Source: Apostichopus japonicus
Taxonomy: Eukaryota; Echinodermata; Holothuroidea; Aspidochirotida; Stichopodidae
NCBI RefSeq assembly: GCF_037975245.1
Contig: NC_092562.1
Span: 26,646,554 to 26,710,553, forward strand
Length of the DNA stretch: 64,000 bases
Reading direction: 5' to 3'
Part shown: positions 6,080 through 43,008 of the stretch, piece after piece
How the letters are laid out: every line of letters begins with the position of its first letter
How positions within the stretch are numbered: position 1 is the first letter of the stretch
Translations under genes and position numbers: made by a program
Notes under the pieces: generated by a model
Databases searched by the model: none
What the model was told of the DNA's origin: nothing
What the model saw: the letters and a program-made list of their open reading frames with translations, nothing else

Positions 6080-6186
6080 TGTGCACATGTATGTATTGGT
6101 CTAAGGAAAGATGACTCGCATAGTGCATTATATATTTGTGACTACCTTGCTTCAGCTACACACTCTCATAATCAATGGGCAGAATG
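6080..6186 (+). CDS. Gene 1 exon 2 (first coding exon): start codon and signal peptide
   Basis: A pyrimidine-rich acceptor ends at 6079. The ATG is at 6111 and the donor gtaaga at 6187. The 25 encoded residues begin MTRIVHY, run through a hydrophobic stretch ([14 protein letters not shown]) and end NGQN, a typical secretory signal. The start is supported by the paralogue: gene 2 has a coding stretch of exactly the same length, 76 nt and phase 1, beginning MTYKVQV and ending SYGQN. The ATG at 6008 in the same interval is in another frame and upstream of the acceptor. Confidence 0.8.

Positions 6187-43008: not shown

Follow-up and report, generated by a model that had tools for sequence, protein, structure and literature searches.

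Tie2 is the textbook vascular receptor and is discussed as a kinase. On the phosphatase side, the R2B receptors (PTPRK, PTPRM, PTPRT, and PTPRU) are single-pass proteins with a stalk of fibronectin type III (FN3) modules and tandem protein tyrosine phosphatase (PTP) domains. In echinoderms, the sea urchin Tie-type receptor SpTie1/2 (Stevens et al. 2010), a kinase, is cited as expressed in coelomocytes and the axial organ (PMC12113024). No account of a Tie-type head on a phosphatase was found in the open-licence literature. Here, a gene that combines the two is described from the sea cucumber Apostichopus japonicus. It lies in a window of 64,000 nucleotides (C2:26646554-26710553 of a 671.6 Mb genome), which is the whole stretch analyzed, and its predicted product has the interior of a receptor phosphatase and a Tie-related head; it is not a Tie kinase.

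The gene and its predicted product

The gene was modelled from open frames, splice signals, and phases as 34 exons on the plus strand, and its start and end (6111..43008) coincide with those given by an earlier sequence-only reading of this DNA. The splice donors are GT in 33 of 33 cases and the acceptors AG in 33 of 33, all phases are consistent, and the single stop is the last codon of a product of 1707 residues. The predicted order is signal peptide, Ig1, Ig2, EGF1-5, an Ig-like module, FN3-1 to FN3-5, membrane span, basic juxtamembrane patch, and the PTP domains D1 and D2, with the signal peptide and the membrane span read by eye from the sequence. The Pfam profile matches of the protein, its comparisons with Tie2, titin, and the RPTP chains, and the trees given below used an earlier version of 33 exons and 1690 residues, which has a faulty D2 entry and is identical in the head and D1. 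Database proteins are numbered P0001 onward. The features of the gene are as follows.

6111..6186, plus strand: exon 1, predicted signal peptide (residues 1-25); agrees with paralogue P0011 (VTTLL...GQNEPVKMTF)
6883..7206, plus strand: Ig1 exon, phase 1-1 (residues 26-133); its end lies inside the Tie2 match
8053..8319, plus strand: Ig2 exon, phase 1-1 (residues 134-222), terminal LIVR; inside the Tie2 match
13857..13991, plus strand: EGF1 exon, phase 1-1 (residues 223-267); Tie2 match, query for the genome census
15115..15258, plus strand: EGF2 exon, phase 1-1 (residues 268-315); inside the Tie2 match
16084..16215, plus strand: EGF3 exon, phase 1-1 (residues 316-359); inside the Tie2 match
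17577..17732, plus strand: EGF4 exon (residues 360-411), additional to vertebrate Tie
18296..18439, plus strand: EGF5 exon (residues 412-459), additional to vertebrate Tie
19480..19764, plus strand: Ig3-like exon (residues 460-554), named by position and by the strand pattern in the predicted model of a paralogue; no Pfam Ig match in the profile search of the protein
24325..24636, plus strand: FN3-1 exon (residues 555-658), contains REGEGGEG
25172..25809, plus strand: FN3-2, two exons, 25172-25248 and 25578-25809 (residues 659-761)
26851..27165, plus strand: FN3-3 exon (residues 762-866); Pfam profile match
27812..28571, plus strand: FN3-4, two exons, 27812-27888 and 28364-28571 (residues 867-961)
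28836..29153, plus strand: FN3-5 exon (residues 962-1067)
29579..29654, plus strand: predicted transmembrane exon (residues 1068-1092), phase 1 in and phase 2 out; identical junction in P0001
30052..30089, plus strand: 38-base juxtamembrane exon with a basic patch, the sole phase-compatible candidate above the score cut-offs; counterpart in P0001
31876..32072, plus strand: juxtamembrane exon running into D1; corresponding exon in P0001
32366..36678, plus strand: PTP D1, eight exons, 32366-32453, 32938-33014, 33547-33583, 33886-33983, 34553-34678, 35065-35213, 36077-36212, and 36550-36678; KNR, DHSR, and WPD present
37196..43008, plus strand: PTP D2, seven exons, 37196-37286, 37483-37559, 37885-38019, 39756-39884, 40120-40250, 42051-42186, and 42937-43008 (stop); HCINGVGR kept, WND for WPD

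The least secure junctions are those of the 38-base juxtamembrane exon, which recurs in the tandem paralogue P0001, and the D2 entry, which was placed by homology to P0003, P0005, P0009, and P0013. The donor behind Ig2 (8319) has a poor score, yet it yields the join LIVRACP, as in P0001; the LIVRG that the sequence-only reading had placed before the EGF block belongs to the raw exon, and the spliced reading is LIVRA. FN3-2 and FN3-4 are 33% identical over 72 residues, and a phase 0 intron interrupts both. P0001 is a database gene model, 83% identical to the window protein, and connects the corresponding exons via the membrane span into D1. The idea that an enzyme-less Tie-like receptor and a neighbouring PTP gene have been read as one can point to paralogue models without a PTP (P0011 and P0032), but it is very improbable given that the phases are consistent across the junction, the membrane and juxtamembrane exons are in place, and the head is joined to D1 in models from Apostichopus (P0001 and P0004) and Holothuria (P0005 and P0009).

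The head (the end of Ig1, Ig2, and EGF1-3) matches three Tie2 sequences of the PDB at E 8.6e-44 to 1.6e-43, and the next match is a different EGF protein at E 9.6e-06. When compared with the fragment of the Tie2 head, the window protein scores 135 bits. EGF proteins of the MEGF/PEAR1 type do resemble the Tie EGF modules, with 44-68 bits over the EGF part, and the Tie likeness could be one that any EGF array would show. This explanation is almost certainly wrong: none of the generic EGF proteins in the sets exceeds 68 bits, the window match runs in order from the end of Ig1 through EGF3, and the predicted fold of paralogue P0011, which stands in here for the window protein, fits the entire Tie2 head in three Tie2 entries (Foldseek). 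Generic EGF similarity was thus rejected on score and fold, and the ectodomain does not fall with unrelated EGF/FN3 proteins. The P0011 model has a mean predicted local distance difference test score (pLDDT) of 83 and a predicted template modelling score (pTM) of just 0.48. The ranking of Foldseek itself places contactin-2 second, between two Tie2 entries, and the rows under the three Tie2 head entries align to the FN3 stalk and so are no control for the head.

Beyond the head, the correspondence with Tie weakens. The Ig-Ig-EGF x3 order seen by the sequence-only reading holds, but the three EGF and three FN3 modules of Tie are five and five in this protein, the surplus being EGF4, EGF5, and two FN3 repeats of the CSTGV type (FN2 and FN4); on the earlier model, Pfam fn3 matched three times. 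The Ig3 and FN3 stalk scores 76 bits with titin, 44 with RPTP-mu, and 23 with Tie2. An agreement with Tie through the stalk, claimed beforehand, is therefore not found, and an identification of the entire ectodomain as Tie fails at the stalk. By sequence, only the head of the window protein is Tie-specific.

PF00102 matches the window protein twice, with 408 bits in all, and the Pfam profile search gave no kinase match at E 0.001. D1 keeps DHSR and the catalytic motifs KNR, WPD, and HCSAGxGR; D2 has HCINGVGR, and WND where WPD is expected. A predicted signal peptide, an ectodomain, one predicted membrane span, and PTP domains inside make up the layout of a receptor-type PTP. Common ancestry of the predicted head with that of Tie1/Tie2 (TEK) and its joining to a tandem PTP, in place of the kinase, in one gene, are supported, as first proposed.

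The single-pass layout, FN3 stalk, and tandem PTP are shared with the R2B phosphatases, which raises the alternative of an adhesion phosphatase like RPTP kappa or mu, in which a Tie head has replaced the MAM domain and serves cell-cell adhesion rather than ligand-gated signalling. Single-domain chains favour it: the window PTP scores 243.5 bits with kappa, 236 with T, 235 with mu, and 232.2 with alpha, and D1 of a scorpion member scores 296.6 with T, 295.6 with kappa, and 290.9 with mu, the next being 245.9. The Fn3_PTPRU domain is also present in a hemichordate (P0039) and a scorpion (P0044) protein. However, the lead of kappa over alpha is just 11 bits for the window gene, and the two-domain chains score higher and disagree, with RPTP alpha best for the window D1-D2 pair (413.7 bits) and RPTP sigma reaching 441.9 bits for the scorpion D1. 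The window protein has a Tie-type head, and neither MAM nor Fn3_PTPRU matched it at E 0.001 in the Pfam profile search. An R2B-type adhesion role is possible, although we consider it less likely than not.

Distribution of the head and proposed exchange of signalling ends

The breadth of the head was explored by three protein searches, which gave 78 proteins, the best 120 of 199, and the best 120 of 180, and were pooled to 253 distinct database proteins (254 with the window protein). The counts are not frequencies, given that Tie-type heads or the window gene served as seeds of the searches and that single genes are in part represented by several isoform rows. With a cut-off of 95 bits chosen by us, 234 of the 254 have a Tie-type head. 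Among these matches listed, 113 carry a kinase (including many close vertebrate Tie1 proteins), 74 a PTP, and 3 a seven-transmembrane (7TM) end, while 44 have none of the three domains tested. Eight of the 82 PTP-bearing proteins fall under the cut-off, including P0003 and P0009, which look like members with shortened matches. Among the sources named for the PTP rows of the matches listed are sea cucumbers, sea urchins, starfish, a brittle star, a feather star, the acorn worm Glandiceps, Branchiostoma, a scorpion, spiders, ticks, and the sea spider Nymphon. Kinase rows with a named source in the same lists belong to vertebrates, amphioxus, echinoderms, and the acorn worm Ptychodera, with no protostome among them.

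These rows show predicted members of the class in ambulacrarians, amphioxus, and chelicerates. The window gene, at first taken for a lone fusion, is a member of a large and apparently old class of Tie-headed receptor phosphatases. Its relatives are annotated as receptor-type tyrosine-protein phosphatase mu-like, T-like, F-like, or kappa-like, or as uncharacterized; they likewise have a Tie-type head and a PTP but differ in the numbers of EGF and FN3 modules, and some list PF23144 (Fn3_PTPRU) or PF00754, which we take to be F5/8 type C. The FN1 motif RxGx[GN]GEG, which the window protein shares with Tie1/Tie2 and which had been read as an agreement with Tie, is found in 90 of 113 kinase-bearing proteins and in 22 of the 82 that bear a PTP.

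Several proteins have other ends. A Tie-type head with an end like that of an adhesion G-protein-coupled receptor (GPCR), with 7TM, was seen in P0045, P0049 (whose head scores just 83 bits), P0062, and amphioxus P0110, whose head clusters with the heads of the kinases P0128 and P0197 (100/99). The head stands without a kinase, PTP, or 7TM match in ticks (P0103-P0105), a horseshoe crab (P0186), and sea spiders (P0081 and P0085), and some chelicerate head-only proteins are named tenascin or angiopoietin-1 receptor. In Apostichopus, P0006, P0007, P0008, and P0010 (46.0 Mb contig) have a single, degenerate PTP (IHCIDGASRS or IHCINGASRS) behind a Tie-type head, and are probable pseudophosphatase receptors.

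Heads were compared in two unrooted trees, a careful one of 72 heads hand-picked from the 234 (259 columns) and a quick one of 116 heads, which omitted most vertebrate Tie1 rows, heads below 95 bits, and short or duplicate rows. The output label requires at least 18 changes in the 72-head tree, with well supported branches forcing at least 11 for PTP and at least 8 for kinase, and 30 changes in the 116-head tree. Kinase and PTP heads pair in the 72-head tree in Asterias (P0095/P0089 at 99/81 and P0072/P0047 at 99/90), Patiria (P0120/P0114 at 100/98), and Branchiostoma (P0195/P0201 at 100/92). A single clade of all 22 kinase-bearing heads was rejected by the approximately unbiased test (p 0.00027), in which the label was taken from domain content and which was run after the tree had been seen. 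A single clade of the vertebrate and ambulacrarian core Tie heads survives the test (p 0.226), though it is absent from the 72-head tree.

A tree of the kinase domains holds 22 of 25 domains, without outside kinases, P0063, P0064, and P0087 having been dropped by a length filter. In it, the core Tie kinases group at 95/95, a second group at 99/95 consists of five further echinoderm kinases, P0095, P0072, and P0120 among them, and the amphioxus kinases are not united in one group. Of the entries that match the kinase of P0095 with a passing stretch, Tie2 is the best (272 bits, well under the 403 of core Tie P0118); an EGFR-labelled entry gives 327 bits for P0095 overall with no stretch passing.

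The simplest reading of the trees is that genes for kinases and genes for phosphatases would have swapped heads, whether through exon shuffling or through gene conversion within tandem arrays. The starfish and amphioxus swaps rest on database gene models, among which chimeric (mis-joined) models are possible in tandem arrays. Relatives from echinoderms, amphioxus, and spider-like animals suggest that the head may have been placed on different signalling ends more than once, and the class most likely arose, and still changes, through exon shuffling of the head among such ends. Given that the trees are unrooted, the order of outputs is judged from distribution alone, among the matches listed. 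It is an evenly balanced proposition that the Tie head predates the Tie kinase, as an exchangeable recognition module whose oldest traceable partner would be a receptor phosphatase from before the protostome/deuterostome split, which later joined a kinase (Tie) and adhesion GPCRs, and which, in the arrays of echinoderms and amphioxus, is still passed between kinase and phosphatase ends, one surface giving opposite outputs. If phosphatases of echinoderms, amphioxus, and chelicerates have indeed carried the head, how the angiopoietin-Tie system arose becomes a matter of exchanged outputs, and ligand binding could be studied on a receptor of opposite chemical output. An animal that has nearly the same head on a kinase and on a phosphatase would naturally test how far receptor input can be separated from output.

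The array and the Tie kinase gene of the same genome

A census of the sea cucumber genome was made with the EGF1 exon as query (150 of 464 candidates scored), and it counts exon matches rather than whole heads. It gave 134 matches at E 0.001 or better, of which 52 reach 60 bits, 33 of these on C2 and 15 on C16. From C2:26660409 to 27528453 there are ten plus-strand EGF1 matches of at least 81 bits, each of which has a plus-strand PTP match behind it, ahead of any further EGF1 match of the ten, with minus-strand PTP matches interspersed; the second gene of this array occupies the right part of the window. These results show that the predicted gene belongs to a large tandem-duplicated family in Apostichopus japonicus.

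The array is a candidate family of recognition receptors, and it is quite possible, if somewhat short of an even chance, that it serves immunity or self-recognition unrelated to Tie signalling, with heads that bind diverse ligands and a Tie likeness that is ancestral only. The 52 exon matches fit this, as do members without an intact active site, members without any of the three output domains tested, and the related head of P0045, which ends in GPS and 7TM domains. Nonetheless, the PTP exons are kept behind every head of the ten-gene array and HCSAGxGR is kept in 57 of 74 PTP members, which points to retained signalling.

The same genome also holds a Tie kinase gene. A starfish Tie kinase is matched, one exon after another, at C2:2482356-2487831 and at C2:2536316-2541957, and at the first locus the Tie kinases of Acanthaster, Lytechinus, Ptychodera, and Xenopus match in order, jointly covering C2:2456715 to 2487837. 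There, Ig1, Ig2, EGF1, EGF2, EGF3, and one FN3 are each a single phase 1-1 exon by candidate splice sites, like those of the window gene, which shows that the predicted Tie-type head and the Tie kinase gene share one type of phase 1-1 exon cassette. It is established that symmetric exons of this kind can be moved without a break of frame, and this is the likely mechanism of head exchange. Two stop-free kinase-domain frames, C2:22340597-22341436 on the minus strand (384 codons) and C2:2320890-2321699 on the plus strand (430 codons), are 34% and 38% identical to a Tie kinase, were the two top-scoring matches of the Tie kinase search, and are possibly retrocopies or other kinases.

Proposed role and other elements of the window

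From these features, the product is probably a ligand- or contact-controlled receptor phosphatase with a Tie-type head, of a class made by exon shuffling, in which D1 acts and D2 is regulatory, and which may oppose a Tie kinase of similar head. A ligand or a protein of a partner cell would bind the Ig2/EGF head, and binding would localize or cluster the receptor and so control D1, which would strip phosphate from tyrosines of nearby substrates, with D2 serving as a regulatory pseudophosphatase. A phosphatase undoes what the kinase of Tie does, and the presence of a Tie kinase gene in the same genome makes a role as antagonist possible. On one cell, the two receptors could compete for one ligand or be recruited jointly, in which case the phosphatase would damp the kinase.

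In starfish, the coelomocyte surface is reported to carry a Tie-2-like kinase together with a receptor phosphatase that is named F-like (PMC13409769). P0204 of Asterias rubens, which bears the same F-like name, has a Tie-type head of 134.5 bits. A role of the family in immune-cell or tissue recognition is suggested by its size and by the expression of a starfish Tie-like kinase and of receptor phosphatases in coelomocytes.

Several points weigh against this proposed role, beginning with the stalk, which favours titin and RPTP-mu as given above. The window protein matches the Tie kinase locus of its own genome in EGF1, EGF2, and FN1 only (E 0.01), and similar heads need not share ligands. P0204 is linked to the coelomocyte protein by name only, which is no proof of identity. 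The HCSAGxGR pattern is missing in 17 of the 74 PTP members, and not every member need therefore act through catalysis, though some of the 17 may only be incompletely modelled or, like P0027 (HCCAGVGR), mildly altered.

The second tandem Tie-headed gene encodes P0001, and the database protein of that number has D1 and ends shortly after D2 begins. Its place in the window is as follows.

54180..64000, plus strand: second tandem Tie-headed gene (protein P0001), first exon to EGF5; continues past the right edge of the window

Frames 9851-10708 and 30971-31279 had no Pfam match. Fragments of reverse transcriptase lie in introns of the gene, at 9851-12500 on the plus strand and 20729-22759 on the minus strand, with RVT_1 matched by Pfam within 11073-11498 and in both minus-strand frames.
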